Assembly (NCBI GenBank): GCA_903863035.1
Contig: CAIPAT010000134.1
Span: 1-64,000 of the forward strand
From: an uncultured Lentisphaeria bacterium
GTDB lineage: Bacteria > Verrucomicrobiota > Lentisphaeria > Victivallales > Victivallaceae
Direction: 5' to 3'
DNA: 64,000 bases
The position numbers and the translations under genes were made by a program. Shown here one piece after another: positions 1 through 22,551 of the stretch (the first letter of the stretch is position 1; every line of letters begins with the position of its first letter). Under the pieces are notes generated by a model. It did no database searches. It was given only the letters and a program-made list of their open reading frames with translations, and was not told where the DNA came from.

Positions 1-771
1 TAAAGCCGGTCCGACGACCGGCGCTCCCAGGGATGGGCAATTTAAAACTTGCAAAACATGTGTCCAAAATGAGGTGACGCAGTGTCCAAAATAAAAGAAT
101 GTGACTGGTGACTGGTGACTGGTGACTGGTGACTGGTGAATGGTGAATGGTGACTGGTGACTGGTGACTGGTGACTGGTGACTGGAAAGGCAAAGGAAAA
201 CGGTTCTGCTCAGCAGTGTCCAGATTGTGCAAAATGGGGAAAGCCCGCGGATGCGGGAGTTGAGGGTTTTGCCCCGCTTGCGGGTCCCGCGACTGCGGGA
301 GAGAAAAGGGGCCAAGTGGAAAGTATGAAACCATAAAATACCTCCCAGACCTCCCAGTCTTCACAGTACTCCCAAACACATTGTGCAGGACTGGTGTCTC
401 CCGCGACTGCGGGAAGGGTAAGCGGTGTCCAAAATAAAACATTATGCCAGTTTTGCCAAAACTGGCAGAATAAGGCGTTTTTGGCAAAAATGCCATACAA
501 CGGCAAAACTGGTCTGCACAGAGCCTGTCCAGAATGTCCAGGTCACGATGTACATATTATGAAAAAGTGTTGTGCGAAGCATGTGTCCAAGATGTCCAAA
601 ATGTCCGGGAGTCTCCATGCGGGTACGGGAAGATGCGCAAGAGTCCAGAATATGGATCTCCATCCGGCGACAGATCAAGTAATGATGCCTGCTTGAATTA
701 TTAAAAATGGACTGTATGTTTGTTTTGAAATTTGTGACAATGCATTAAAAAATTAAATGAATGAGGATAGC
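1..771. other. Gene-free repeat-rich region
   Basis: I find no credible gene here. The open frames in this stretch read through repeats and have no ribosome binding site. The segment carries a heptamer tandem array (listed separately), three copies of a short palindrome of the form CCCGCNNNTGCGGGA (about 245-259, 286-300 and 401-415), a 19-bp palindrome CCAGTTTTGCCAAAACTGG at 447-465, and many degenerate copies of TGTCCAAAAT or TGTCCAGAAT (for example near 60, 82, 214, 425, 524 and 587-610). It looks like a graveyard of small intergenic repeats rather than regulatory DNA for the next gene. Confidence 0.6.
101..185. repeat. Heptamer tandem repeat (GTGACTG)n
   Basis: About twelve head-to-tail copies of the 7-bp unit GTGACTG, two of them changed to GTGAATG. 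A related heptamer, TGACTCC, makes up most of the 45-bp repeats at 22354-22487. Short tandemly repeated heptamers are known from cyanobacterial and other intergenic regions. The function is unknown; polymerase slippage explains the growth of such arrays. Confidence 0.9.
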
Positions 772-4959: not shown

Positions 4960-5271
4960 ACTTAAATCCTCCTCGATTTAATTATATCTTCTTTGTAACA
5001 ATTATTATACACATAAAAACAGGAAAAGGCAATTATTTTTTCAGATAGAGATTGTATAGATAAACCGATATCGACAAAAGATTTTTTCCGCGGAAATAGA
5101 AAGCAACGACTGTGGAAGCTCATTCCCCCCCAATCTGTTTGGGATATTTCCTTTAAATAAAGTTGATTTTTATTTTGCGGACACTTAAATTACAGAATCC
5201 GGGAAAACCGGACTGTTCATGAAAATCATAAATTTCTGATGTTCGGATTATTTTTGGAAAAGGGCCTGCTT
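4960..5271. promoter_or_regulatory. Divergent intergenic region before sugar cluster
   Basis: A 312-base AT-rich region between the divergent XRE regulator and rfbF. It must hold the promoters for both, including the one for the 13-gene sugar cluster. I cannot place -35 and -10 boxes with confidence. No coding sequence is seen. Confidence 0.4.
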
Positions 5272-6087
5272 ATGAAGAAGATAGAAGCAACGAAAGAAAT
5301 GCCTCCGGTAATGATACTCTGCGGGGGGATGGGCTCACGGCTCCGGGATGTGACGGAACTGCTTCCCAAGCCGATGGTACCTATCGGAACTCAGCCTATC
5401 GTCTGGCACATCATGAAAACTTATGCTGCATTCGGGGTAACCAGATTTATCCTCTGCCTGGGGTACAAACGTGAATGTTTTATTGATTATTTTCTGAAAT
5501 ATCACGCCTATGCCGCCGACATCACTGTTTCTCTCGGGCAGCACGGCAAAATCGCCTACCACAATCATTCAGGAGAGGAAGAGTGGGAGGTTACGCTGGC
5601 GAATACTGGTTTGGAAACGATGACCGGCGGACGCGTCGTTCGCGCCGGGCAGTATCTCAAGGACAGCGACGAAGATTTTTTTCTAACTTATGGCGATGCG
5701 GTGGCAAATATAGATATTCAGGCCTTGTATCAAGCTCATCTGAAGCATGACCGGCTGTTGACGCTTACGGCAGTCCACCAGGCCGGCCGGTTCGGCGAAA
5801 TAGAATTGGATGGCAACCAGGTCAACCGGTTCAACGAGAAACCGCCGAATGAGGGCTATGTCAACGGCGGGTTCATGGTTTTGAAAAAAAGTTTTATTAA
5901 ACGTTATATCTCCGAACACGAGGATGTTTTTTTTGAACATGCTCCGATGATAAATGCTACCGCTGACCATCAGGTTGAAGCTTACAAACATGAAGGTTTC
6001 TGGCAATGCATGGATACCCCCCGCGAACACAGTTTGCTTAATGCCCTGTGGCAGGCGGGTAAAGCCCCGTGGACGGAGGCATGGTAA
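5272..6087 (+). CDS. rfbF: Glucose-1-phosphate cytidylyltransferase
   Basis: A 271-residue enzyme that makes CDP-glucose from glucose-1-phosphate and CTP, the first step to all CDP-6-deoxy and 3,6-dideoxy sugars. The nucleotide-binding loop is MILCGGMGSRL near residues 14-24, followed by LLPKPMVPIG. The later motifs LTYGDAVANID, NEKP and WQCMDTPRE are typical of RfbF. The ATG at 5272 is preferred to the one at 5239 because of the purine-rich GGAAAAGGG upstream and because the family starts close to the nucleotide loop. The stop TAA touches the ATG of rfbG, so the two are translationally linked. Confidence 0.93.
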   Translation: MKKIEATKEMPPVMILCGGMGSRLRDVTELLPKPMVPIGTQPIVWHIMKTYAAFGVTRFILCLGYKRECFIDYFLKYHAYAADITVSLGQHGKIAYHNHSGEEEWEVTLANTGLETMTGGRVVRAGQYLKDSDEDFFLTYGDAVANIDIQALYQAHLKHDRLLTLTAVHQAGRFGEIELDGNQVNRFNEKPPNEGYVNGGFMVLKKSFIKRYISEHEDVFFEHAPMINATADHQVEAYKHEGFWQCMDTPREHSLLNALWQAGKAPWTEAW

Positions 6088-7176
6088 ATGTTCGGCAATA
6101 TTTATTCCGGAAAAAGAGTACTGGTGACCGGGCATACCGGCTTCAAGGGTTCATGGCTGGTGTTATGGCTGAAGAAACTTGGCGCGGAAGTTGCAGGTTA
6201 TGCCCTGCCGCCGCCGACAACGCCCAGCCACTATGACCTGCTCTCGCCGGATATAAATTCTGTAAACGGCTGCATTCTCGACCCGGAAAAAATGGACAGG
6301 GTATTTATTGATTTTTCCCCGGAGATTGTTTTCCATCTGGCAGCCCAGCCGCTGGTCAGGCTGTCATACACCCAGCCGAAGGAAACATTTGAAACCAATG
6401 TGATCGGCACCGTTAATGTACTTGACGCCTGCCGCCGATGCAGTTCGGTGCGGGCAATTGTCAATATTACCAGTGATAAATGTTATGAAAACCGCGAATG
6501 GGTGTGGGGTTACCGTGAAAATGACGCGATGGGCGGTTATGATCCGTACAGTGCCTCCAAGGGCTGCGCCGAATTGGTTGCCTCCTCCTATAGAAATTCG
6601 TTTTTCAACCCGTCGGAATACGGACGTAAGCATCATACGCTGCTTGCCAGCTGCCGCGCGGGCAATGTTATCGGCGGCGGGGACTGGGCGGCTGACCGGC
6701 TTATTCCGGATATTATGAAAGCTGCCGCACAGGGCAAGGCCGCAGATATTCGCAATCAACATGCAGTGCGTCCCTGGCAGCACGTGCTGGAGCCGCTCAG
6801 CGGCTATCTGCAGCTTGGACAGAAACTGCTGGAAGGCAAGCCCGAATTTTCCGGCCCCTGGAATTTTGGCCCGGATGACGCCGAAGTCATTGCGGTTCAT
6901 GAGGTAGTGGAACGAATGAAACTTGCCTGGCCTGATGTCAATTACTCCGTGCCTGGCAACCTGGAACAGCCGCATGAAGCCGGACTGCTTAAACTGGACT
7001 GTTCCAAAGCCGCGACATTCCTGAAATGGCATGGAGCCTGGGATAGCGCGACGATTTTTGCCCGTACCGCCAACTGGTACCGTGAATTTTATGAAAACAA
7101 TGCAATTCTTTCTGAAGAAGATATCGAACTTTATATTAAAGCCGCGGAAGGGCAGCATCTCGAATGGACAAAGTAG
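6088..7176 (+). CDS. rfbG: CDP-glucose 4,6-dehydratase
   Basis: A 362-residue short-chain dehydrogenase of the extended type that converts CDP-glucose to CDP-4-keto-6-deoxyglucose. The NAD loop is VTGHTGFKGSW (about residues 13-23). The catalytic pair is YDPYSASKG (YxxxK, about 151-159), and the Thr/Ser of the triad lies in NITSDKCY. The RPWQHVLEPLSGYL segment is typical of this dehydratase group. It starts directly after the rfbF stop and overlaps rfbH by 13 bases. Confidence 0.93.
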   Translation: MFGNIYSGKRVLVTGHTGFKGSWLVLWLKKLGAEVAGYALPPPTTPSHYDLLSPDINSVNGCILDPEKMDRVFIDFSPEIVFHLAAQPLVRLSYTQPKETFETNVIGTVNVLDACRRCSSVRAIVNITSDKCYENREWVWGYRENDAMGGYDPYSASKGCAELVASSYRNSFFNPSEYGRKHHTLLASCRAGNVIGGGDWAADRLIPDIMKAAAQGKAADIRNQHAVRPWQHVLEPLSGYLQLGQKLLEGKPEFSGPWNFGPDDAEVIAVHEVVERMKLAWPDVNYSVPGNLEQPHEAGLLKLDCSKAATFLKWHGAWDSATIFARTANWYREFYENNAILSEEDIELYIKAAEGQHLEWTK

Positions 7177-8513
7177 CTAAAGCGGAAAAACTGAAGCAGA
7201 GTATTCTGGAACAGGTAAAAGAATATTACCATCTGGTACATGACAGTTCCAGCAGAGAATTTATTCCGGGCCAATCAAAAGTCAATTACGGCGGGCGGGT
7301 TTTCGATGAACACGAAATGGTCAATCTGGTGGATTCCAGCCTGGAGTTCTGGCTTACCTACGGGCGTTACTCCCGGGAATTTGAACAGCGGCTGGCGGAA
7401 TATCTGGGTATCAGGTTTGCGCTGCTGGTAAATTCCGGATCTTCCGCCAATCTGCTGGCGTTTATGGCATTGACTTCTCCGCTGCTGGGTGACCGCAGGA
7501 TTGAAAGAGGCGATGAAGTTATTACTGTCGCGGCGGGCTTCCCGACAACCGTTTCGCCAATCATCCAGTATGGCGCGATACCGGTTTTTGCTGATGTGGA
7601 ACTGGACACCGCCAATATAGACATCAAATGCCTGAAAACCGCGCTTTCGCCTGCAACTAAAGCCGTGATGCTGGCGCATACGCTGGGTAATCCATTCAAT
7701 ATCAACGCAGTTAAAGAATTTTGCGGGGAAAATGGTTTGTGGCTGATCGAGGACAATTGCGACTCGCTGGGTTCGCGTTATGACGATGCGTTCACCGGTA
7801 CCTTCGGCGATATCGGCACTTCCAGTTTTTATCCGCCGCACCACATGACGATGGGTGAGGGGGGCGCGGTTTATACCGATGACCCGCTGTTGAATAAAAT
7901 CATGCTCTCCATGCGTGACTGGGGCCGTGACTGCTGGTGTGAAAGTGGCAAAGATGATACTTGCAAGTGCCGTTTTGCCAGACAATATGGAACGCTGCCT
8001 TTCGGTTACGATCACAAATATGTGTACAGCCATTTCGGATATAATCTGAAAGTTTCGGATATGCAGGCTGCGGTCGGCTGCGCCCAGCTTGAAAAAATCC
8101 CGGATTTTGTGGAAAAACGCAAACACAATTTCCGGAGGCTGTTTGACGGTCTCAACGCGTTTGAGCAATACCTTATTCTGCCGCGCGCACTGCCGGAAGG
8201 CGTTCCGTCATGGTTCGGTTTTTTGATTACTCTGCATGACGGAATCAACTTCAGCCGTAACGAAATTGTTGAATATCTTGAAAAAAACAAGATACAAACC
8301 CGGAATCTTTTCGCCGGGAACTTGACCCGGCATCCATGTTTTGATATACTAAAGGCGGGCAGTGATTTCCGGATAGCAGGCAAACTGGATAATACGGACA
8401 AAATAATGAAGGACAGTTTCTGGATCGGCTTGTATCCGGGAATGACGAATGAAATGCTGGATTACATGATTCTTAAAATCAGCGATTTTCTTAATCAGGG
8501 AGGAAAGAATTAA
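7164..8513 (+). CDS. rfbH: CDP-4-keto-6-deoxyglucose 3-dehydratase (E1, RfbH)
   Basis: A 449-residue PMP/[2Fe-2S] enzyme that removes the C3 hydroxyl of CDP-4-keto-6-deoxyglucose. Two diagnostic features are present. The usual PLP lysine of the aminotransferase fold is replaced by His (SFYPPHHMTMGEGG). The iron-sulphur cysteines have the exact E1 spacing C-X57-C-X1-C-X7-C, from the Cys of EDNCDS to those of DCWC and DDTC. E1 normally works with a flavin/FeS reductase (E3, ddhD/RfbI) to complete 3-deoxygenation; no E3 gene lies in this window. The gene overlaps rfbG by 13 bases. Confidence 0.93.
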   Translation: MDKVAKAEKLKQSILEQVKEYYHLVHDSSSREFIPGQSKVNYGGRVFDEHEMVNLVDSSLEFWLTYGRYSREFEQRLAEYLGIRFALLVNSGSSANLLAFMALTSPLLGDRRIERGDEVITVAAGFPTTVSPIIQYGAIPVFADVELDTANIDIKCLKTALSPATKAVMLAHTLGNPFNINAVKEFCGENGLWLIEDNCDSLGSRYDDAFTGTFGDIGTSSFYPPHHMTMGEGGAVYTDDPLLNKIMLSMRDWGRDCWCESGKDDTCKCRFARQYGTLPFGYDHKYVYSHFGYNLKVSDMQAAVGCAQLEKIPDFVEKRKHNFRRLFDGLNAFEQYLILPRALPEGVPSWFGFLITLHDGINFSRNEIVEYLEKNKIQTRNLFAGNLTRHPCFDILKAGSDFRIAGKLDNTDKIMKDSFWIGLYPGMTNEMLDYMILKISDFLNQGGKN

Positions 8514-8599: not shown

Positions 8600-9418
8600 A
8601 TGTCAGTTAAAAATGTTTTTATCACGGCCGAAATAGGGATAAATCATAATGGGGATATGGACATTACCAAGCGGCTGATTGACGTGGCGGTGCTCGCCGG
8701 ATGCAGCGCCGTAAAGTTTCAGAAGCGCACGATTGATAAAGTTTATACCCGTGAATTTCTCGATACCGCGCGCCAAAGCCCCTGGGGAACGACTCAGCGC
8801 GCGCAAAAAGAAGGTCTCGAATTCGGCAAGGCGCAATATGATGAAATCGACCAGTATTGCAAAGAGCGCAATATTGACTGGTTCTTCTCCGCCTGGGACG
8901 TGGATGCCCAGATATTTATGCGGCAGTACAACCTGAAGTATAATAAAATAGCGTCGCCGGTGCTGACGACCCTGCCCATCCTTGAAGCTGTCGCCGAAGA
9001 AGGCAGATATACATATATCGCCACCGGCATGAGCACCTGGGAGGAAATCGACGCGGCGGTGGAGATCTTCCGGAAGCACAAATGCCCGTTTGAACTGTTG
9101 CACTGTGTCTCCATCTATCCGATGGAACCCCATGAAGCCAACCTGTTGCTTATTCCGGAATTGCGCAAACGCTACGGTTGCGATGTCGGCTATTCCAGCC
9201 ATGAACTGGGTAATACCGCCACGCTGGGCGCGGTTGCGCTGGGAGCGGTCTCGGTTGAACGGCATATTACGCTTGACCGTAAAATGTACGGTTCCGATCA
9301 AAGTTCATCAGTGGAACCGGCAGAACTGATAACCATCGTCAAAGAAATACGGACGATGGAAAGCTGTCTTGGCACCGGAGTGCGCACCTTTACTGAACGG
9401 GAACTGTCTACCAGGAAA
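8600..9418 (+). CDS. NeuB-like PEP-dependent sugar condensing enzyme, no SAF domain
   Basis: The reading frame runs to the TGA at 9431-9433; the recognised enzyme domain spans this interval. It resembles N-acetylneuraminate synthase: AEIGINHNGD at residues 10-19, AVKFQKRT, a FFSAWD strand, IATGMSTWEEI, LLHCVSIYP, VGYSSHELG and VERHITLDRKMYGSDQ. The family condenses PEP with a sugar aldehyde to give a 2-keto-3-deoxy acid. At 277 residues the protein is about 60-70 shorter than usual and lacks the C-terminal SAF/antifreeze-like domain that closes the active site in the sialic acid enzyme. GGATGGAAAG precedes the ATG. No CMP-sugar synthetase is nearby, so a normal CMP-nonulosonate pathway is unlikely. 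It is followed by a thiamine-diphosphate enzyme and a KdsC-like phosphatase. Confidence 0.82.
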
Positions 9419-9555
9419 AAAATGCGCGGCTGAGAACGATTCTCCGACCGCCTTTTTTTGCCGTTATTAAAGTTACAGACCCTTGCGCTTCGGAAAAACA
9501 ATAATATTGTAAACCGGAAAAGCATTTAAACAAAACTATTTACAGTGTGCCGGAT

Positions 9556-11340
9556 ATGATAAAACTTTCAGATTATTTGATGAATTTTTTAGTGTCGAAA
9601 GGGGTCAGTCAGACTTTTATGCTGCCTGGCGGTGGTGCGATGCATCTTGACGACTCGCTTGGAAGAAACGGCAAATTGAATTATGTGTGTTTTCTGCATG
9701 AGCAGGCGCTGTCCATCGCCGCGGAGGCTTATGGACAGCACACTAACACTCCCGGCGTCGGAATTGTCACGTCGGGGCCGGGCAGCACCAACACCGTGAC
9801 TGGCGTCGCGGCCGCTTTTATCGATTCCACCCCTTGTTTTTTCATATCCGGACAAGCGAAACGCGCTGATTTGAAAATTGGCACCGGTGTCCGGCAGATG
9901 GGATCTCAGGAGGTGGATATTGTTTCAATTGTCTCCCCCATCACAAAATATGCAGCGATGGTGCTTGAGCCTGCTGAAATCCGCTATCACCTGGAAAAAG
10001 CATGGCATCTTGCTACTACCGGACGCATGGGTCCGGTATGGCTTGACATCCCGCTTGACGTACAGGCGGCAATAATTGATGAAACCGCGCTTCGCGGTTA
10101 TATTCCGGACGCGGTTTCGGCGGCAGAGGACAACGTTTCTTCAGCGGCAGATCAGATCGTCAGTATGTTGAAATTGTCGAAGCGTCCGCTTATTCTCGTC
10201 GGCAACGGGGTTAAACTATCCGGTGCGCAGGATGAATTATACCAGTTTGCGGAGAAAAACTCCATTCCGGTGCTGCTCACCTGGAAAACGATAGATATGT
10301 TCGACTACAGCCATCCGCTCAATTTCGGCAGTCCGGGATTGATGGGAAACCGGGCGGCTAATTTTATTGTCCAGAATAGTGATCTCCTGTTGATTATGGG
10401 AAGCCGACTGGACCCCAGCATCACTGCGTTTAATAGCGCGGACTTCGGACGCAATGCCCAAAAAGTTATGGTGGACATTGATGAGGCTGAAATCCGCAAG
10501 ATAAAGAATATTACCCTGCCGGTCGTCGCCAACGTAAAACATATGCTGTTGGAACTGAATGCAAAACAGAGCGAACTCTCTCCTTCCGGCAACACCGGCT
10601 GGCTGGCGTATTGTACCGGGCTTAAAGTCAAATACCCGGTCGTGCTCGACGAATACCGTAAATGCACAGACGGAGTTAATCTTTATGTATTCACGGATGA
10701 ACTGTTCAAGCAGCTTACCGCCGATGATGTGATTGTTCCGGAAAGTTCCGGTGCTGCAGGCGAAGTCACCTATCAGGCGATGCGCGTGAAACTGGGGCAG
10801 AAGATCAAGAACGCTGCAGGCCTAGGCTCGATGGGGTTCGGACTGCCGTATTCAATCGGCGCCTGTATTGCCAATGACTGCCGGCGTACGATTTTAATCA
10901 ACGGCGACGGCGCGTTTCAGCTTAACATTCAGGAACTGGAAACCATCGTGCGGCTGAAGCTGCCGGTGAAGATGTTCATATGGGATAATAATGGTTACGG
11001 CAGCATCATGGCAACCCAGCGCAATCTGTTCGGCGGGTTTTATGTCGGTTCCGACCCGTCCAGCGGACTTACGCTGCCGGATGTTTGCGCCGTGGCGAAA
11101 GCCTATGGAATACGGACGGAAACGGTCGAAAAGCAGGATACGCTGGAAAGTACAATAACGCGGGTTCTCGCGGGAAAAGATCCAGTGCTTTGCCGGATAC
11201 GGGTCGCTCCGTCGCAGGTTACCGCGCCGCGCGTACAGGCAATTAAACTGCCGGACGGCAATATGATGTCTAAGCCGCTTGAAGACATGTGGCCTTATCT
11301 GGATGAAGCGGAAGTGAAAAATAATATGAAAGGGGTCTGA
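9556..11340 (+). CDS. Thiamine-diphosphate enzyme, acetolactate synthase-like (YerE-like?)
   Basis: About 594 residues with the three-domain layout of acetohydroxyacid synthase. The N-terminal PYR domain has the catalytic Glu in LHEQALSIAAEAYG, followed by GIVTSGPGSTN. The middle domain begins near RPLILVGNGVK. The C-terminal PP domain has the ThDP motif INGDGAFQLN...WDNNGYGS. I place the start at the ATG 9556 (MIKLSDYL); a GTG at 9547 is also in frame. No regulatory subunit is present and it sits in a CDP-sugar cluster, so amino-acid synthesis is unlikely. A known precedent is YerE of Yersinia, a ThDP/flavin enzyme that adds a two-carbon branch to CDP-3,6-dideoxy-4-keto-hexose. Decarboxylation of a keto acid made by the NeuB-like enzyme is another option. 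Confidence 0.8.
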   Translation: MIKLSDYLMNFLVSKGVSQTFMLPGGGAMHLDDSLGRNGKLNYVCFLHEQALSIAAEAYGQHTNTPGVGIVTSGPGSTNTVTGVAAAFIDSTPCFFISGQAKRADLKIGTGVRQMGSQEVDIVSIVSPITKYAAMVLEPAEIRYHLEKAWHLATTGRMGPVWLDIPLDVQAAIIDETALRGYIPDAVSAAEDNVSSAADQIVSMLKLSKRPLILVGNGVKLSGAQDELYQFAEKNSIPVLLTWKTIDMFDYSHPLNFGSPGLMGNRAANFIVQNSDLLLIMGSRLDPSITAFNSADFGRNAQKVMVDIDEAEIRKIKNITLPVVANVKHMLLELNAKQSELSPSGNTGWLAYCTGLKVKYPVVLDEYRKCTDGVNLYVFTDELFKQLTADDVIVPESSGAAGEVTYQAMRVKLGQKIKNAAGLGSMGFGLPYSIGACIANDCRRTILINGDGAFQLNIQELETIVRLKLPVKMFIWDNNGYGSIMATQRNLFGGFYVGSDPSSGLTLPDVCAVAKAYGIRTETVEKQDTLESTITRVLAGKDPVLCRIRVAPSQVTAPRVQAIKLPDGNMMSKPLEDMWPYLDEAEVKNNMKGV

Positions 11341-11343
11341 CCT

Positions 11344-11811
11344 TTGACGATAAAACTGGTATTATTAGACATAGACGGCGTATTGACTGACGGCAAGGTC
11401 TCGGTGGATTCCAACGGCAACGAATCGAAAACGATTGATTTCAAGGATATTGACGCGGTGTTTGAATTGAAACGCCGCGGATACAAAGTCGGGTTGATCA
11501 CCGGAGAGGCAACCCCGATTACGCTGTTCTTTAATGCACGCTTCAAGCCGGACTTCTTCTATAACGGGTGTAAAGACAAACCGGCGGCAATTGATGAAAT
11601 TTTAAGGAAAACCGGCTGTGTGCTTGAAGAAGTCTGCTACGTCGGAGACGGCAAATACGATATCCCGGCGATTAAACTTGTCGGTTTGTCGGCTTGTCCG
11701 TCAAATGCGATTCCTGCAGTCAAGGAACTTGCAACGGTTCATCTGGCGGCGCGCGGCGGCGACGGATGTGTATGGGAGTTGCTGGAATGGATTATAAACA
11801 GGGAGAAGTAA
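11344..11811 (+). CDS. KdsC-like HAD phosphatase
   Basis: A 155-residue C0-type HAD hydrolase like 3-deoxy-octulosonate-8-phosphate phosphatase. The nucleophile motif is LLDIDGVLTDG at about residues 7-17, motif II is LITGEA, and the last motif is VGDGKYDIPAI. Such enzymes work on phosphorylated 2-keto-3-deoxy sugar acids and fit downstream of a NeuB/KdsA-type synthase. The start codon is TTG at 11344, three bases after the preceding stop, with AAAGGGG upstream. The stop overlaps the next ATG (TAATG), so it is part of a coupled operon. Confidence 0.85.
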   Translation: MTIKLVLLDIDGVLTDGKVSVDSNGNESKTIDFKDIDAVFELKRRGYKVGLITGEATPITLFFNARFKPDFFYNGCKDKPAAIDEILRKTGCVLEEVCYVGDGKYDIPAIKLVGLSACPSNAIPAVKELATVHLAARGGDGCVWELLEWIINREK

Positions 11812-12938
11812 TGCCCATGAACAATATGACAGGCAGCGATCTGCAAGTACGAAACCATATTATCGAACTGCTTGCAAAAAGAAGAAACTATCAGCAGGAG
11901 CTCATAGACCTGACCGGGCGATATCAGTATGTGGTGTTTTACGGCATTGGTGAAGTTTTTAATACTATGATAAGCACCTGGGAAGAGTGTATCGGCAGAA
12001 AAATTGATTACTGCTGCGATAGCGATAAGGCAAAATGGGGTAAATGTTTTCGTGGAATCAAGTGTATATCCCCGGAAGAGTTGACCGCTATAAAAGATAA
12101 ATGCGCAGTGTTTGTTACTATTGGTGAATTCAAACCGGTATTTAATTTTATGACTGAGCGCGGCTTCCCTTCAGTTAACCTGATCTTCAAATACGACCTG
12201 GCGGCCTCCTGCTTTTTATCGAGTCATGACCACAATGAAATCGCAGACCGCCTCTGTAAAGTTTACAGCTGTTTATCCGACCGGCAGTCCCAAAAGGTCT
12301 TTAATTCCATTGTCGCCAGAGTTTTAGGTGACGGGAAGAATATTGAAATCATGGTGGATGTCTGCGAGAAGCATCAGTATTTTCCGGCAGATATAATCAA
12401 ACTTTCAGAACATGAAAGTTTTGTTGATATCGGAGCATTCAACGGGGATACGCTCAGAGACTTGACCGCACGCACCCATGGAAAATTTGATCAGGTCTTT
12501 TCGTTTGAACTTGATGCGATCAATTTCAAAGCATTACAGGAAAATGTCCGTCTGATGCCGGAATGTGACCGGATTAAAATCTACAATGTTGGAATATGGG
12601 ACAGTGAATGCGATATCACTTACAGCATTGGCCAATCCCAAAGCACTGTCGGCGCAGGCGAAGCTCACGGACATGTGGTCAGGCTGGACGACGCGCTTAA
12701 AAACGAAAAAATAACTTTTATAAAAATGGATATTGAAGGGGCGGAGCCGCAGGCGTTGCGCGGATCTCAGAATATCATCAGGTCGCAGAAACCGATGCTT
12801 GCAATATGCATTTACCATGATTTCAAACATCTGTGGGAAATCCCGCTATATATAAAAGAACTGGTTCCTGAATACAAAATTTATTTGCGGCACCATACCA
12901 ACCTTGAGTACGAAACCGTCTGTTACGCGATCATTTAG
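11811..12938 (+). CDS. FkbM-family methyltransferase with extra N-terminal domain
   Basis: A 375-residue protein. The ATG at 11811 overlaps the previous TAA and has GGGAG six bases upstream; the longer frame reading back into the phosphatase gene is not used. The C-terminal half is an FkbM (Methyltransf_21) domain: SFVDIGAFNGDTLRDL (SAM loop), VFSFELDAINF, ITFIKMDIEGAEPQAL and LAICIYHD. These enzymes usually O-methylate sugars. The N-terminal ~170 residues contain a Rossmann-like start (VVFYGIGEVFNTMI) and DYCCDSDKAKWGK, as in small nucleotide-binding domains found beside glycan methyltransferases. The exact acceptor is unknown. Confidence 0.82.
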   Translation: MPMNNMTGSDLQVRNHIIELLAKRRNYQQELIDLTGRYQYVVFYGIGEVFNTMISTWEECIGRKIDYCCDSDKAKWGKCFRGIKCISPEELTAIKDKCAVFVTIGEFKPVFNFMTERGFPSVNLIFKYDLAASCFLSSHDHNEIADRLCKVYSCLSDRQSQKVFNSIVARVLGDGKNIEIMVDVCEKHQYFPADIIKLSEHESFVDIGAFNGDTLRDLTARTHGKFDQVFSFELDAINFKALQENVRLMPECDRIKIYNVGIWDSECDITYSIGQSQSTVGAGEAHGHVVRLDDALKNEKITFIKMDIEGAEPQALRGSQNIIRSQKPMLAICIYHDFKHLWEIPLYIKELVPEYKIYLRHHTNLEYETVCYAII

Positions 12939-12952
12939 CCAGGAGCAAAGCC

Positions 12953-14002
12953 ATGCAGGAAAAAGAAATTGAAAACACCAAACGGGCCAAATTGCGGCAG
13001 GAAAAACCGCTGGTATATGACAAGGTGATAAAAATAGCCGAACGGCACCAGCAGGGTATCGCCACTCCGATTATTGATATAGCCTATAACTATGCCTGTA
13101 ATTTGAAATGCCAGCATTGCACCGCGGCGCGGTTCGCGAAGAAAGAACGGAAACTGACTCCGTCCGACTTGAAGAAACTCAGCGACGAAGCGGATGCACT
13201 CGGGCTGTGCCAGTTCTGTCTTTCCGGTGGCGAGCCGTTGATCTTCAAAGATCTTGACGAAGTGATCAAGGCAATGCAGCCGGACAAATTTCATCTGGCG
13301 ATGAGCACCAACGGTCACTTCATGACCCCGGAGATGGCGCGGCATTTAAAAACGCTCGGAGTGGATAAAGTCAAAATCAGCCTGGACGATTACGACGAGA
13401 AGCGGCATAATGAGAATCGCAACAGCGAGGGCGCATATCAGAAAGCGATCAATGCCATGCTCAATGCCAAGGCCGCCGGTTTGAGCGTAGTCATCCAGAC
13501 CGTCGTCACCCACCAGAATTGCCGGACTGACCGTCTGATCCAGATGGCTAAATTCGCGCAGGAAAACGACTTTACGGTTGATGTGCTGGTCGCCAGGGCC
13601 ACAGGCGCCTGGGAAGGCAAACATGAAGTCCTGATTGATGAAGCAGACGCGGAATTCCTCAGGAAAGCGCATGAACAGTATCCTGTGCTGCATCGCGATA
13701 CCTTCCCGTCCTACGGCATCAACAAAGGCTGTGGTTGTGTTGATTCGACCTTGCACGTAACTCAATATGGCGACGTGACGCCATGTGTTTATATTCCGAT
13801 CGCCATCGGCAATATTTTTGAGGAAAGTCTGGCAGATATTATCAAACGCGGCCAGAGCATCAAATGTTTCCAGAAATACAGCAGTTTGTGCCTTTCCGGC
13901 GAAGACCGCGAGTTTATAAACAAGTATATGTCCAAATCATACGGCAAACCGCTGCCGATTAATTGGACGGAAGCCTTTGACGAGGAAGATTTTGCGAAAT
14001 GA
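12953..14002 (+). CDS. Radical SAM enzyme (first of pair)
   Basis: A 349-residue radical SAM protein. The 4Fe-4S motif is CNLKCQHC (CxxxCxxC) near residue 48, followed by the SAM-contacting CLSGGEPLIF. The C-terminal part has further cysteines (GCGCVDST, DVTPCVYIPIAIGN, SSLC) that resemble a SPASM/Twitch extension for auxiliary clusters. Such proteins act on peptides, sugars or antibiotics; here, between sugar genes, a radical deoxygenation, epimerisation or C-C change of the sugar is plausible. The end overlaps the second radical SAM gene by four bases (ATGA). Confidence 0.85.
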   Translation: MQEKEIENTKRAKLRQEKPLVYDKVIKIAERHQQGIATPIIDIAYNYACNLKCQHCTAARFAKKERKLTPSDLKKLSDEADALGLCQFCLSGGEPLIFKDLDEVIKAMQPDKFHLAMSTNGHFMTPEMARHLKTLGVDKVKISLDDYDEKRHNENRNSEGAYQKAINAMLNAKAAGLSVVIQTVVTHQNCRTDRLIQMAKFAQENDFTVDVLVARATGAWEGKHEVLIDEADAEFLRKAHEQYPVLHRDTFPSYGINKGCGCVDSTLHVTQYGDVTPCVYIPIAIGNIFEESLADIIKRGQSIKCFQKYSSLCLSGEDREFINKYMSKSYGKPLPINWTEAFDEEDFAK

Positions 14003-15033
14003 TCAGGTACACTGAACTGAAATCAACCAACCGGCAGAATCTCATGGAGATACTGCCGTTGCAAAAGCCGTTCACTGTCCTCATTGAACCGTCAAGTTGC
14101 TGCAATTTCAAGTGCGTTCAGTGTTTTCAGGGCATTAAAGAAGACAATTACTTTACCCGCAACCGGATGAATATGCCGCTTGAGCGGTTCCTGAAGATTA
14201 TTGCGCAATTACAAGCCTGGGAAGGTCCCAAACTCAAAGTTCTGAAACTCAGCTTGTATGGCGAGCCGCTGATTAATCCTGACTTCTGTGAAATGCTGAG
14301 AATCGCCAGAGAAGCGGATATCGCCGAACGGATTGAAACCACAACCAACGCCTCGCTGCTGACTAGCGCCATTGCGGAAAAACTGGTTGAATACCGGCTG
14401 GATTACGCCAGAGTGTCTATTTATGCGCCCGACCAGCATAAGCATGAGAAGATTACCGGTTCAAAAATGGACATCAACTCCATCCATGAGAACCTCCGGG
14501 TATTGCAGGAAATCAAAAAGCAGCACAAGTCAGAAAAACCGTTCGTCAGCGCCAAAATGCTGGATACATACGGCGAAGACAATGATCGTTTCATTCAGAT
14601 ATATCAGGATGTGGCCGATGAATTGTATATTGACAAGCCGCATAGCTGGATTAAAACCGGCAACGCCGATTTTATGAAAAATTACTATCAGGATGGTATC
14701 GGTGCAGCGGTAGAAGATATTAAACAGCACAGTACCAGACGAGTCGCCTGTCCTATGGCGTTTACCACCATGGTTGTCCGCAGCAACGGCGATGCTGCTC
14801 CTTGTTGCGTGGATTTTATTGGAGGCACCAATCTGGGCAACATTGATGAGCATAATATGCGGCAAATCTGGGAATCAGACCGCTGGCTCGAATTTCAGAA
14901 GATGCAGTTAGAAAACCGCAAACATGAAAATTATTCATGCGCCCGGTGCGATATCTATCTGAGTGATCATTATACCAGAGACAACATAGACGGCTTTCCG
15001 GTTGAGAAATTGCGTCGGAAAAATTTCAATTAA
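13999..15033 (+). CDS. Radical SAM/SPASM enzyme (second of pair)
   Basis: A 344-residue radical SAM protein with CCNFKCVQC (CxxxCxxC, about residues 34-42) and a clear SPASM C-terminus: CPMAFTTMVVRSNGDAAPCC, then GNIDEHNMRQIWES and CARCDIY. SPASM cysteines bind extra 4Fe-4S clusters. It overlaps its neighbour by four bases and shows only distant likeness to it, so the pair may work in sequence or as a complex. The substrate is unknown. A glycosyltransferase gene starts 12 bases downstream. Confidence 0.86.
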   Translation: MIRYTELKSTNRQNLMEILPLQKPFTVLIEPSSCCNFKCVQCFQGIKEDNYFTRNRMNMPLERFLKIIAQLQAWEGPKLKVLKLSLYGEPLINPDFCEMLRIAREADIAERIETTTNASLLTSAIAEKLVEYRLDYARVSIYAPDQHKHEKITGSKMDINSIHENLRVLQEIKKQHKSEKPFVSAKMLDTYGEDNDRFIQIYQDVADELYIDKPHSWIKTGNADFMKNYYQDGIGAAVEDIKQHSTRRVACPMAFTTMVVRSNGDAAPCCVDFIGGTNLGNIDEHNMRQIWESDRWLEFQKMQLENRKHENYSCARCDIYLSDHYTRDNIDGFPVEKLRRKNFN

Positions 15034-15044
15034 AGAGACTGAAC

Positions 15045-15995
15045 ATGGACAAGAAGAAAATCAGTATTGTCAGCGGTTGTTACAATGAGGAAGGCAACCT
15101 GCAGGAATTTTATGACCGGACAGTAAAAACGCTGTCCCTGTTCCCGCAGTATTCATACGAGATCATCATGGCGGACAATTGCTCAACCGACAGCAGCCGG
15201 GATATTCTGCGGCAGCTTGCCGCAAAAGATAAAAATTTCAAAGTGATTCTTAACGCTAATAATTTCGGTCCGGTCCGGTCCGGGTATAATGCTTTTCTGC
15301 AGGCATCCGGCGATGCGGTGGTGCTCATGAGCTCAGATTTGCAGGATCCCCCGGAGATGATTGCCGATTTCATCCGCAAATGGGAGGAAAATTATCAGGT
15401 GGTTGTGACCAGAAAAGGCAAAAGCAAAGAAAATCCATTGATGTTTCTCATCCGCCGTTTCTATTACCGGTTGCTGGCAAAATTTTCCGATACCGATCAT
15501 ATCATTCAAAATTTCACCGGGTTTGGGCTTTACAGCCGTAAATTCATGGAGGCTCTGAAACGTTATCATGACCCCAATCCGTATTTTCGCGGCTTTGTCA
15601 GCGAAATCGGATTCAAGAGGACCGAAATAGAATTTGTTCAGCCGCAACGCAAACATGGCCGGTCCAAGCATAATTTTTTCTCTCTGTATGACATGGCGAT
15701 GTCGGGGTTTGTCAATCATTCCAAACTGCCGCTGCGCCTGGCAACGTTTTTCGGGTTCTGTCTGGCGGGGTTGAGTCTGTTACTGGCATTCGGCTATCTG
15801 ATTTATAAGCTTCTCTACTGGGATACTTTTACGCTTGGCCTGGCGCCGCTGGTCGTTGGTTTATTTTTCTTTTCGGCAGTACAGTTGATTTTTATCGGCA
15901 TTATCGGCGAATATGTCGGGGCGATCCTGACTCAGGTAAAAAACCATCCGCTGGCGATTGAAGACGAAAAGCTTAATTTTGAAAATAAGGATTGA
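15045..15995 (+). CDS. GtrB/DPM1-like family 2 glycosyltransferase
   Basis: A 316-residue polyprenyl-phosphate glycosyltransferase. The GT2 domain has SIVSGCYNEEGNL at the start, MADNCSTDSS, and the catalytic SSDLQDPPEMI near residue 92. Two C-terminal membrane helices (about 232-258 and 263-295) place it at the inner membrane. GtrB-type enzymes load one sugar from an NDP-sugar onto undecaprenyl phosphate, and GtrA then flips it. A GtrA gene lies one gene downstream at 17140. It overlaps the C-methyltransferase gene by four bases. Confidence 0.88.
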   Translation: MDKKKISIVSGCYNEEGNLQEFYDRTVKTLSLFPQYSYEIIMADNCSTDSSRDILRQLAAKDKNFKVILNANNFGPVRSGYNAFLQASGDAVVLMSSDLQDPPEMIADFIRKWEENYQVVVTRKGKSKENPLMFLIRRFYYRLLAKFSDTDHIIQNFTGFGLYSRKFMEALKRYHDPNPYFRGFVSEIGFKRTEIEFVQPQRKHGRSKHNFFSLYDMAMSGFVNHSKLPLRLATFFGFCLAGLSLLLAFGYLIYKLLYWDTFTLGLAPLVVGLFFFSAVQLIFIGIIGEYVGAILTQVKNHPLAIEDEKLNFENKD

Positions 15996-17140
15996 TAAAT
16001 ATGCCGGTTTGCGCTTGCAGGGTCTGCGGTAAAGCTTTTTTTGAAAAGCCGTTATTGCATTATGGAAATATGCCGAAAGCGGCGCAGAATTTTCCGGATG
16101 CGGCTTCGCTGGCGGCAGAGACAGGCGCCGATCTGACGGTGTGCCAGTGTGCCGGCTGCGGCCTGGTGCAGTTGAACAACGAGCCGGTGCCCTACTATAA
16201 AGAAGTAATCCGGGCCGCGGCAGTTTCCGCGGTAATCAAAGATTTAAAAACCAGACAGTTTGCCGGTTTCATTGATAAATATTCTCTGCAAGGTAAAAAA
16301 ATAATCGAGATCGGGTGCGGTCGCGGCGAATTCCTGTCGCTGCTGCAAACACTTGATGTTGATGCTTATGGTCTCGAATATTCCGAACCATCAGTTTCGC
16401 AATGTGTAAAAAACGGGCTTAACGTATCATGCGGATACCCAGACCGCGAATCCGGGGTGTTGGCGGACGGCCCCTTTGACGCTTTTTTACTGCTGATGTT
16501 CCTGGAACATATGCCTGACCCCAATTCTGCGCTGAAAGCAATCTATGACAATTTGGCGGACGGGGCGGTCGGACTGGTTGAAGTGCCTAATTTTGACATG
16601 ATGCTGCGCAGCAAGTTATTCTCTGAATTTATCGGTGACCATCTGTTGTATTTTTCGCGTGAAACTTTGCATATTGCCTTGAATATGAATGGCTTCGAAG
16701 TTATTGAATGCAGCGAACTGCGCGATGATTACGTTATTTCCGCTGTGGTGAAAAAACGCGGGAAACTGGATATTTCCAGCTTCTATGACTATCAAACTGA
16801 AATTGCTGCCGGAATTAACGGATATATTGACCGTTTTGGAGAAAAAAAAGTGGCAATATGGGGAGCCGGACATCAGGCGCTGGCCATCATCGCGTTGACG
16901 AAAATAGCGGATAAAATTAGATATGTCGTTGATGCCGCGCCATTTAAACAGGGCAAATTCACTCCGGCAACTCATTTGCCGATTGTTGCGCCGGACTACC
17001 TCCGCGCTGATCCGGTCGAGTCGGTGATCGTCATGGCCGCCAGTTACTCCGACGAAGTAGCCGGAATTCTGCGCCGGCAGTTCTCCCCGCAGATAAAGAT
17101 AGCCATCCTCAGGGATTTTGGACTGGAAATAGTTGACTGA
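15992..17140 (+). CDS. NDP-sugar C-methyltransferase (TylC3/NovU type)
   Basis: A 382-residue three-domain enzyme. It starts with a zinc-binding Methyltransf_13 domain (CRVCG at residues 7-11 after the first Met, then CQCAGCGLVQL), continues with a SAM domain (IIEIGCGRGEFLSLL, about 103-117) and a GDHLLYFSRETL segment matching the H-x-x-YFS active-site region of sugar C-methyltransferases, and ends in a Methyltransf_14 domain with a second Rossmann-like loop (VAIWGAGHQALAI). The family methylates C3 (or C5) of NDP-4-keto-deoxy sugars through an enolate, so the cluster probably makes a methyl-branched sugar. It overlaps the genes on both sides. Confidence 0.85.
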   Translation: MINMPVCACRVCGKAFFEKPLLHYGNMPKAAQNFPDAASLAAETGADLTVCQCAGCGLVQLNNEPVPYYKEVIRAAAVSAVIKDLKTRQFAGFIDKYSLQGKKIIEIGCGRGEFLSLLQTLDVDAYGLEYSEPSVSQCVKNGLNVSCGYPDRESGVLADGPFDAFLLLMFLEHMPDPNSALKAIYDNLADGAVGLVEVPNFDMMLRSKLFSEFIGDHLLYFSRETLHIALNMNGFEVIECSELRDDYVISAVVKKRGKLDISSFYDYQTEIAAGINGYIDRFGEKKVAIWGAGHQALAIIALTKIADKIRYVVDAAPFKQGKFTPATHLPIVAPDYLRADPVESVIVMAASYSDEVAGILRRQFSPQIKIAILRDFGLEIVD

Positions 17141-17625
17141 TGCAAAGGTTAATACAAAAATATCATCATTTGCGTGCGGAATCCGGCAGAATAACCAGAT
17201 TTCTTATCACCGGAGTCTGGAATACTCTCTTCGGTGTTATAGTGTACATTGTTTTATATGAAGGCCTCAAACAATGGGTTAATTATCTGGTGCTGATGAT
17301 TCCAAGCAATATCCTGGCGATTACTAATGCCTATATTTGCTACAAGTTGTTTGTGTTCAAAACTCGCGGTAATGTCGTCCGCGAATATTTACGTTTTTAT
17401 GTGGTCTACGGCGGTGCGATGCTGCTGGGGTTTGTGCTGATGTTCTGTCTGGTTGACGGGCTCGGCCTGAATCCGGTCATCGCCCAGATTTTATGTGTGC
17501 CGATCTCGATAGCATTCAGCTACTGCAGCCACCGCAATTATTCTTTCCGCAAACCTAAGGATAAAGCGGATAACGATGATGACTCCGGCAAAGCATCGCC
17601 GGGAGGAGAGAAAAACAATGAGTAG
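17140..17625 (+). CDS. GtrA-family flippase-like membrane protein
   Basis: A 161-residue protein with four membrane helices (roughly 22-44, 48-72, 90-112 and 117-136) and the GtrA pattern RFLITGVWNTLFG near the start and SYCSHRNYSFRK near the end. GtrA proteins are thought to flip undecaprenyl-phosphate-linked sugars across the inner membrane. It pairs with the GtrB-like glycosyltransferase at 15045. The ATG shares a base with the preceding TGA. The C-terminal tail is acidic and overlaps the next gene by eight bases. Confidence 0.9.
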   Translation: MQRLIQKYHHLRAESGRITRFLITGVWNTLFGVIVYIVLYEGLKQWVNYLVLMIPSNILAITNAYICYKLFVFKTRGNVVREYLRFYVVYGGAMLLGFVLMFCLVDGLGLNPVIAQILCVPISIAFSYCSHRNYSFRKPKDKADNDDDSGKASPGGEKNNE

Positions 17626-18658
17626 AAATATTTCCAGTGAAGATTTCGCAGATATTCTTCAGCGTCTTACCCCTTTGCGGGATAAGTTACGCGGTAAACG
17701 CATATTTCTCTCCGGCGGCACCGGGTTCTTCGGCAAATGGCTGCTGGAGAGTTTTGTGTTGATCAACCGCCAGTATGCGCTTGGCGCAGCGCTGACGGTG
17801 CTGTCCCGCAATCCGGAAAAGTTTCTATCCGAATATCCTGGATTTCGCGAGTTTCAGGAAATTTCTTTTGTTCAAGGCGATATTCGCAACTTTACTTTTC
17901 CAGCCGGCCATTTTGATTATGTGATTCATGCGGCGACGGAAGTCAGTTTGAAAATGGATCAGGAACGTCCTGAAGAAATGTATTCTGTGATTCTGGAGGG
18001 AACACGGCGCATACTTGATTTCACGGCGACCTCCGGCGCTAAAAAAATGCTTTTTATAAGTTCCGGCGCAGTGTACGGTACCCAGCCGCCGGAATTGGAG
18101 AACATCTCCGAAGACTTCATGAATACCTCTGGTTTCGAGGGCCCGGAATCCGCTTATGGACGTGGAAAACTGCATTCGGAGCGGCTTTGTCTGGAATATG
18201 CCGCCATGGACCGGTTTTACATTACCATCGCCCGCTGTTTTGCGTTTGCCGGGCCGTATCTGCCGCTGGATACACATCTGGCAGTCGGCAATTTTATCAA
18301 AGACTGCCTTGAAAAACGGCCCATAATCATCAAGGGAGATGGTACAGTTTTGCGTTCATATATGTATGCCGCCGATCTGGCGGTATGGCTGTGGACGATT
18401 CTGGTCAAAGGCTTGAATGACAGAGCGTATAATGTCGGCTCGGAGCAGGCGATATCTATTGCCGGACTGGCGGAGGAGATCAACCGGTATTTTGGCAGCA
18501 GCAGCGAAATTAAAATTCTTCAGAGTCCTCTTGAAGGTGTGCTGCCTTCCCGATATGTCCCGAGTACCGGGCGCGCCAGGAAAGAGCTGAACCTGACAAT
18601 GAATTTCCCGCTCAGTCAGACTCTGGAAAAAACCATCCGCTGGTCTCTGGGGCGCTGA
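17618..18658 (+). CDS. NAD-dependent sugar epimerase/dehydratase
   Basis: A 346-residue extended short-chain dehydrogenase. I use the ATG at 17618 because GGGAGGAG lies nine bases upstream; the ATG at 17576 is inside gtrA. The NAD loop is IFLSGGTGFFGKWLLE (about 28-43), the Ser of the triad lies in FISSGAVYG, and the catalytic pair is in SAYGRGKLHSE (YxxxK). It could reduce or epimerise the 4-keto group of the CDP-sugar, like the last step of abequose, paratose or tyvelose synthesis, or act as a YerF-like reductase. It is the last gene of the 13-gene run. Confidence 0.85.
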   Translation: MSRNISSEDFADILQRLTPLRDKLRGKRIFLSGGTGFFGKWLLESFVLINRQYALGAALTVLSRNPEKFLSEYPGFREFQEISFVQGDIRNFTFPAGHFDYVIHAATEVSLKMDQERPEEMYSVILEGTRRILDFTATSGAKKMLFISSGAVYGTQPPELENISEDFMNTSGFEGPESAYGRGKLHSERLCLEYAAMDRFYITIARCFAFAGPYLPLDTHLAVGNFIKDCLEKRPIIIKGDGTVLRSYMYAADLAVWLWTILVKGLNDRAYNVGSEQAISIAGLAEEINRYFGSSSEIKILQSPLEGVLPSRYVPSTGRARKELNLTMNFPLSQTLEKTIRWSLGR

Positions 18659-21338: not shown

Positions 21339-21519
21339 GATTTACAGATTTCTGTCTTCGATTTATTTTCTCATTTTTTTTGTTTGATACTTTCTTTTTT
21401 CTCCATATAACATTATTGTATAAAAGTACGCCCTCATTGTGTAGTGACGGGCTGGGTTGCTTTTTAAGTATATGGTTCGGTGAAAATTCCGGACAGGCCC
21501 AATTACAATGGTGTTTGAG

Positions 21520-22551
21520 ATGTATAAGCTGGAAGAAAAAGTTTTCGTTGATGGAATGCAGCAGGCGCATGTCTTTGCTGCGCATTTCAGCTTATGCACT
21601 GGTCAATCAGCCGATCTTGCCCTTATTGACCCCGTGGCGATGGACATTACGCCGGTTATTGGCGATTTTGATACTCGTCGGTTCGAATTTGTTAAAGTTA
21701 ACAGTGAGCATGGTTTTAACCATGTTGCTGATTATTTTGTTTTCGATTCTGAATACAATCCGGTTCACGTTATTTCCCGCGGCAATGCGGGGCATTTGAT
21801 TCAGGACGACAAGGCGATTGCCGCTGCGTTTAGCGCCGGCCACTGTGAACTGTTTAAGTCCTGGAACAATGTCCTGACAGAGACTCATAGAGTGAGCGGA
21901 GCCGGTGCGGTTTCAATTAATTCGCATTCCTTATTAACCGGTAACTGCGGTAATAATTTTTCATCCGCCGTTAATAATGACGGCGGTGTGTTCAAGCTGG
22001 TTTTGGACAGGATGGAGACAAATATTACCATCACGGTCAACGGAATGATGAATAAGAGCCTGGCCGTCAGGCTTGATTCTGCAAACGCGGTTCGCCGTTT
22101 TTATGTTGACGCTGAAATTTCGGTAAACCGGCTCAACATTAATTTAATTAACGGTCATGCCGGTACAGGCAGCGACGGAAGAAATATTGCAAATAATTCT
22201 GCATTCAATAACGCCATCGCTGGAAAACAATCCACCGGTGGCGTTGTCATTTTAACCACAGAGACATCCCGCAGCGCGGGACTAACCCGAGAGTTAGCAA
22301 GACACAGAGAAATCCAAAGTGAATGTTTGTGTTCCGTACAGGCATCCGCTTTCGTTCCCATTCTGACTCCTGACTCCTGTCTCCTGACTCCTGTTTCAGT
22401 TCCCATTCTGACTCCTGACTCCTGTCTCCTGACTCCTGTTTCAGTTCCCATTCTGACTCCTGACTCCTGTCTCCTGACTCCTGTTTTCAAAAATAATAAT
22501 AATAACATATTCGAGAATATAACATTGAGGTGTGCAAATGTATCAACTTGA
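21520..22551 (+). pseudogene. Decayed paralogue of the giant protein N-terminus
   Basis: An open frame of about 343 codons. It begins MYKLEEKVFVDGMQQ, clearly related to the opening of the next gene (MYQLEERILFDGAA, a LEPR-XLL-like motif). A segment with HVADYFVFDSEYNPVHVISR and GNAGHL resembles the IHIISHGNDGL part of DUF4347, but the domain is incomplete. Later sequence shows no repeat structure, and the 3' end is made of three 15-residue repeats (VPILTPDSCLLTPVS) that are simply the translation of a 45-bp DNA repeat. The frame runs 14 bases into the giant gene. I interpret it as a shortened, decaying copy; expression as a real protein cannot be excluded. Confidence 0.6.
22354..22487. repeat. 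Three 45-bp tandem repeats of TGACTCC heptamers
   Basis: Copies begin at 22354, 22399 and 22444. Each consists of GTTCCCATTC followed by TGACTCC-type heptamers and TTTCA. The heptamer resembles the TGACTGG unit at 101-185. The 45-bp period keeps the reading frame open, which gives an artificial 15-residue protein repeat. It ends 50 bases before the giant gene. Confidence 0.92.

Follow-up and report, generated by a model that had tools for sequence, protein, structure and literature searches.

A SAF-less NeuB-like synthase beside a YerE-like ThDP enzyme in a candidate operon for C4-branched higher-carbon sugars

Three co-directional genes from an uncultured Lentisphaeria bacterium (GenBank assembly GCA_903863035.1, contig CAIPAT010000134.1) had been grouped as a module in a sequence-only reading of the window, the 64,000-nucleotide stretch of DNA analysed here. 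Matches to Pfam and NCBIfam bear out this grouping. The first gene (8600..9433, + strand) encodes a short NeuB-like PEP-condensing synthase of 277 amino acids that lacks a SAF domain and is the predicted maker of a 2-keto-3-deoxy sugar acid phosphate. The second (9547..11340, +) encodes a YerE-like ThDP enzyme of 597 amino acids, a putative acyl-to-CDP-keto-sugar ligase, and the third (11344..11811, +) a KdsC-type HAD phosphatase of 155 amino acids that putatively acts on a sugar acid phosphate. The gap between the NeuB-like and ThDP genes is 113 bp, versus 7-10 bp in several relatives.

The extent of the module had been drawn too narrowly, because genes for rfbF, rfbG and rfbH (5239-8513), which lie directly upstream on the same strand, were overlooked. 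The rfbF-like gene (5239..6087, +) encodes a glucose-1-phosphate cytidylyltransferase, which forms CDP-glucose, and its best match is TIGR02623 (278 bits, slightly below the cut-off of 300). RfbG, a CDP-glucose 4,6-dehydratase (6088..7176, +; TIGR02622, 476 bits versus a cut-off of 278), and RfbH, a CDP-4-keto-6-deoxyglucose 3-dehydrase (7164..8513, +; NF011936, 711 bits versus 423), both exceed their curated cut-offs, as expected of the CDP-3,6-dideoxyhexose route. By established chemistry, this route yields CDP-4-keto-3,6-dideoxyglucose.

Downstream of the trio, the interval 11694-17140 encodes an FkbM methyltransferase, two radical SAM/SPASM proteins, a GT2 glycosyltransferase and a protein of the sugar C-methyltransferase family, and the same gene order is present at L153, a locus from a distant member of the phylum. 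The last of these genes (15992..17140, +; PF13489, PF08484 and a sub-threshold match to PF08421) is conserved in related operons, in many of which it lies downstream of the ThDP region. It is followed by an SDR-family gene (17576..18658, +; PF01370), whose homologues occur within the same operon at L033, L109, L153, L160, L163, L174-L177 and other loci. Elsewhere in the window, a repeat-rich, adhesin-like ORF of 4885 amino acids (22532-37189) begins with MQMYQLEERILFDGA, and its neighbour (21508-22551) begins with MVFEMYKLEEKVFVDG; these starts suggest an N-terminal sequence motif common to both proteins. The giant gene is immediately preceded by a 45-bp tandem repeat (22350-22486; 3.1 copies, 98% match), and near the start of the window (101-185) the 7-bp unit GTGACTG is repeated in 12 copies.

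The claim that the NeuB-like protein keeps the PEP-condensing core and lacks a SAF domain holds. PF03102 covers residues 26-261 of 277 (221 bits), and no Pfam match to a SAF domain was found in this protein. Structure prediction had been proposed as a check, and an AlphaFold model of the protein alone (mean pLDDT 95.5) depicts a stand-alone barrel with no domain after it. The nearest folds are 6ncs, the NeuB structure 1xuu and PseI, followed by DAHP and KDO8P synthases. In an alignment to 1xuu, residues E11, K39, Q41, K116, S119, Y173, S199, H201, E220, H222 and D233 match, positions that we take to be those of the NeuB active site, whereas the SAF arginine of NeuB is without a counterpart. 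The window protein thus has the barrel and the PEP/metal-site residues in common with NeuB/SiaC and PseI, but it lacks their SAF domain and a CMP-sugar synthetase partner, and it scores below both equivalog cut-offs (NeuB, 233 versus 399.65 bits; PseI, 169 versus 340.25 bits). The nearest solved structure, 6ncs (TM 0.86, 34% identity), is a barrel of ~285-290 residues, described as a short 'sialic acid synthetase' from Leptospira borgpetersenii. Among 71 short NeuBs, a loop reading RxSPWGxTxRxQK (residues 58-70) is nearly invariant; it could bind the second substrate and is a candidate substitute for the SAF arginine.

The genome of the window (93.6% complete) contains one NeuB, and a search of it returned no SAF domain. 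This speaks against the possibility, raised in the sequence-only reading, that a separate SAF protein is encoded elsewhere in this genome. The reported lack of a CMP-sugar synthetase is also borne out: none is encoded in the operon of the trio, and the only such enzyme in the genome (the sole CTP_transf_3 protein) is KdsB, which is encoded on another contig within an hldE-kdsB-kdsA-kdsC run. With KdsB as the sole CMP-sugar synthetase and no SAF domain, it is unlikely that this bacterium activates any ulosonic acid except KDO with CMP.

The HAD protein had been described as a type that handles 2-keto-3-deoxy sugar acid phosphates, and its matches are in keeping with such a substrate. It shares its HAD type with KdsC and with KDN-9-phosphate phosphatase (3e81, its best PDB match), but falls below both curated cut-offs (TIGR01670, 92.8 versus 106.95 bits; NF058599, 110.2 versus 180 bits). 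It was rejected as the KdsC of this genome, since the canonical KdsC is encoded beside KdsB and KdsA on the other contig.

The ThDP enzyme carries all three TPP-enzyme domains recognised by Pfam. The ThDP motif GDG-N27-NN and the catalytic Glu are present (the window reads GDGAFQ...DNN and HEQA), and relatives are alike. Its best PDB match is 8rph (382 bits, versus 290 bits for the top acetolactate synthase), which is JanthE, a YerE-like enzyme (PMC12188165). Judged by sequence, the window enzyme is closer to YerE-like enzymes, with JanthE as the reference compared, than to acetolactate synthase. The true acetolactate synthase of the genome (738 bits) is encoded elsewhere and forms a distant outgroup in the ThDP tree, and a housekeeping role of this kind was therefore rejected for the window enzyme. 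Given this acetolactate synthase and the separate KdsC, the HAD and ThDP proteins of the window are extra copies. The ThDP gene is encoded together with the genes of the CDP-4-keto-deoxy-sugar route both here, where rfbFGH are upstream, and in many relatives. Decarboxylation or carboligation of the keto acid had been suggested for this enzyme. Carboligation is the best reading. Because the enzyme is YerE-like and lies behind rfbFGH, CDP-4-keto-3,6-dideoxyglucose is the probable acceptor to which the keto acid is joined.

Characterised YerE-like enzymes offer models for such a reaction. In Yersinia pseudotuberculosis, where yersiniose A is made, YerE transfers the acetyl unit from pyruvate to CDP-4-keto-3,6-dideoxyglucose, and its donors are pyruvate or 2-oxobutyrate, with transfer of C3 at most (PMC12247030). 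The window likewise has a YerE-like enzyme beside the route to this CDP-sugar, but adds a PEP-using synthase and a phosphatase, which implies a sugar-acid donor. ErwE, of the erwiniose pathway, adds longer 4-hydroxy-2-oxo acids, and the donor preference of MMAR_2332, from the caryophyllose pathway, is similar (PMC12247030). These two enzymes, likened to the window enzyme by description, are YerE-like and use longer hydroxylated 2-keto acids; in the portions of text that were searched, no NeuB-type synthase is reported for their donors. Literature text searches likewise returned nothing relevant on a NeuB-ThDP pairing. An earlier mention of the pairing in the primary ErwE and JanthE papers or in a survey of more than 200 YerE-like enzymes is possible, as novelty is judged here from a review, a paper on enzyme engineering and these searches.

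A short-NeuB alignment, run against 84,980 genomes, yielded 582 confirmed relatives. The best 80 of these 582, together with 7 further loci, gave 87 neighbourhoods in which neighbours were detected by single-query searches. Many of these short NeuBs adjoin a CMP-sugar synthetase, and in these cases a GmhA-like isomerase and a KdsC-type HAD are often present as well. The absence of a SAF domain, although confirmed, is therefore not peculiar to the module: hundreds of short NeuBs exist, and most of those examined adjoin a CMP-sugar synthetase. A ThDP gene lies within 4 kb of the short NeuB at 13 of the 87 loci, and none of these 13 has a CMP-sugar synthetase there, versus 48 of the 74 loci that lack a ThDP gene (p = 8e-6 in Fisher's test, an optimistic value given the non-independence of related sequences). 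The ThDP label, which also takes in L048 and L080, where the ThDP gene lies further off, changes 6 times on the NeuB tree versus a mean of 14.6 after shuffling, and starred branches force 4 changes. The NeuB-ThDP pairing has therefore been gained or lost several times. Loci L048 and the Caulobacter loci L074 and L080 were rejected as module members because their ThDP genes are too distant from NeuB.

The short NeuBs that adjoin CMP-sugar synthetases, GmhA-like isomerases and KdsC-type HADs (L025-L028, L036, L050, L108 and ~40 further loci) are carried by Pelagibacter, Omnitrophota, Magnetococcales and others. Where tested (L108), the adjoining synthetase is PseF-like. This group apparently represents an uncharacterised ulosonic acid pathway.

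Recurrence of the three genes in other genomes had been named as a critical point, and the grouping is not due to chance. A NeuB and HAD pair near a ThDP gene was found at no fewer than 22 distinct loci besides the window, which come from Bacillota and Verrucomicrobiota as well as from the window's own phylum and other Lentisphaerota. The HAD of Bacillota is a fusion with a GmhA (phosphoheptose-isomerase-like) domain, a hint at an aldose phosphate as the substrate; these ORFs were rejected as CMP-synthetase fusions, since their domains are HAD-GmhA.

Homologues of the ThDP enzyme (E <= 1e-80) are present in 94 of 388 genomes of the window's phylum. The neighbourhoods of 39 loci from this phylum reveal a recurring backbone, rfbF-rfbG-rfbH-[slot]-ThDP. 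The slot is empty at 9 loci (L174-L177, L182, L185-L187 and L190), where rfbH and the ThDP gene are 0-33 bp apart. In the window-type layout, a short NeuB occupies the slot and the HAD gene comes before or after the ThDP gene. At 12 further loci (L164, L166-L173, L178, L180 and L183), the slot holds a protein of ~500-535 amino acids with weak similarity to NeuB, of which one (L171:9804-11375, - strand) is NeuB-SAF-cupin by Pfam and the other 11 were assigned by length and similarity. Some of these loci then carry a putative HAD-like protein, distinct from that of the window type, with a WDVDDVLN motif. By its position between rfbH and the ThDP gene, NeuB-SAF-cupin may constitute a second kind of donor cassette.

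The ThDP tree splits according to what occupies this slot. The NeuB-SAF-cupin clade has support of 98/94, the short-NeuB core of 17 rows has 100/100, and the empty-slot clade has 100/99 with L191 left out. Support for uniting the short-NeuB group with the cupin group is weak (67/69). One enzyme, at L044, is encoded with a short NeuB yet is placed among the empty-slot group. Two JanthE site residues, V121 and P293 (PMC12188165), correspond to Asp/Arg in 11 of 11 empty-slot enzymes, mostly to Ser/Ser in short-NeuB enzymes and mostly to Ile/Cys in the cupin type. Such variation of clades and site residues with layout is as expected if the cassette sets the donor. At L153 and L154, the ThDP enzyme is 69-72% identical to that of the window and the short NeuB is more distant, and thus the cassette has probably been swapped at least once.

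Taken together, the six genes from rfbF to the HAD gene resemble a pathway for an uncommon sugar of the bacterial surface. Alongside the observed gene identities, fold, SAF absence, lack of the usual CMP-synthetase partner, layouts and clade split, we infer every catalytic step of the following pathway. RfbF, RfbG and RfbH would supply CDP-4-keto-3,6-dideoxyglucose. The short NeuB-like enzyme would condense PEP with a phosphorylated aldose to give a 2-keto-3-deoxy sugar acid phosphate, from which the HAD protein would strip the phosphate. The YerE-like enzyme would then decarboxylate the keto acid, and the resulting acyl anion would be added to the CDP-sugar at its C4 ketone. This would give a tertiary alcohol whose long side chain carries hydroxyls but, as in caryophyllose, is deoxy beside the new carbonyl, and the SDR protein, a candidate reductase, would probably reduce this carbonyl. 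Caryophyllose is 3,6-dideoxy-4-C-(D-altro-1,3,4,5-tetrahydroxyhexyl)-D-xylo-hexopyranose, and its C6 side chain lacks the 2'-hydroxyl, i.e. is deoxy at C2' (PMC5706390). This oxygen-free C2' would correspond to the position of C3 from a decarboxylated 2-keto-3-deoxy acid. The GmhA-like partners hint that the aldose could be a heptose phosphate, and the analogy with caryophyllose that it could have four carbons.

We hypothesize, at a probability of about 0.7, that the operon makes a caryophyllose-like, C4-branched higher-carbon sugar as a CDP derivative with a PEP-derived keto acid donor. The sequence-only reading had proposed that a sugar is extended by PEP carbon and the keto acid reused, rather than sialic acid made. 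That this is not ordinary sialic acid synthesis is supported, but the probable acceptor, CDP-4-keto-3,6-dideoxyglucose, was overlooked.

The NeuB-like and HAD proteins could instead make a free ulosonic acid for its own use while the ThDP enzyme makes a yersiniose-type sugar from pyruvate. The empty-slot operons demonstrate that YerE-like enzymes and rfbFGH operate without NeuB, and short NeuBs are mostly paired with CMP-sugar synthetases. We nevertheless regard two parallel pathways as unlikely, because KdsB is the sole CMP-sugar synthetase of the genome, none lies near the ThDP-linked short NeuBs, and cassette-dependent clades and active-site residues are not expected if all these enzymes use pyruvate. 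It is more doubtful still that the keto acid is the donor but another keto-sugar or aldehyde, rather than the rfbFGH product, is the acceptor. Several trio loci lack rfbH within 8 kb, no more than rfbF and rfbG accompany the trio in Bacillota, and CDP-4-keto-6-deoxyglucose likewise has a C4 ketone. However, rfbFGH abut the trio in the window's genus and at L032, L033, L109, L153 and L160, and absent rfb genes may sit elsewhere or past contig ends. A chance grouping of misannotated housekeeping genes (acetolactate synthase, a KDO-type synthase and KdsC) is highly improbable: the NCBIfam names liken the ThDP enzyme to acetolactate synthase and the HAD to KdsC, but all these matches are below cut-off, true copies of acetolactate synthase, KdsA, KdsB and KdsC are encoded elsewhere in the genome, and the grouping is conserved across phyla.

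Beyond the operon itself, we lean towards a route, widespread and so far undescribed, that decarboxylates ulosonic acids, which are normally CMP-activated whole, to provide YerE-like enzymes with acyl donors. Two kinds of cassette, NeuB-SAF-cupin or a short NeuB with a HAD, would be interchangeable next to rfbH and the ThDP gene and lead to monosaccharides of ~12 or more carbons. If true, a function would be given to one group of SAF-less 'sialic acid synthases', and a ligase family with sugar-sized donors would become available for biocatalysis. It would become directly testable how side chains like the one in caryophyllose arise, with a genome signature by which to find more. Bacteria would then be seen to join two separately made sugars by ThDP chemistry to produce long-branched sugars.
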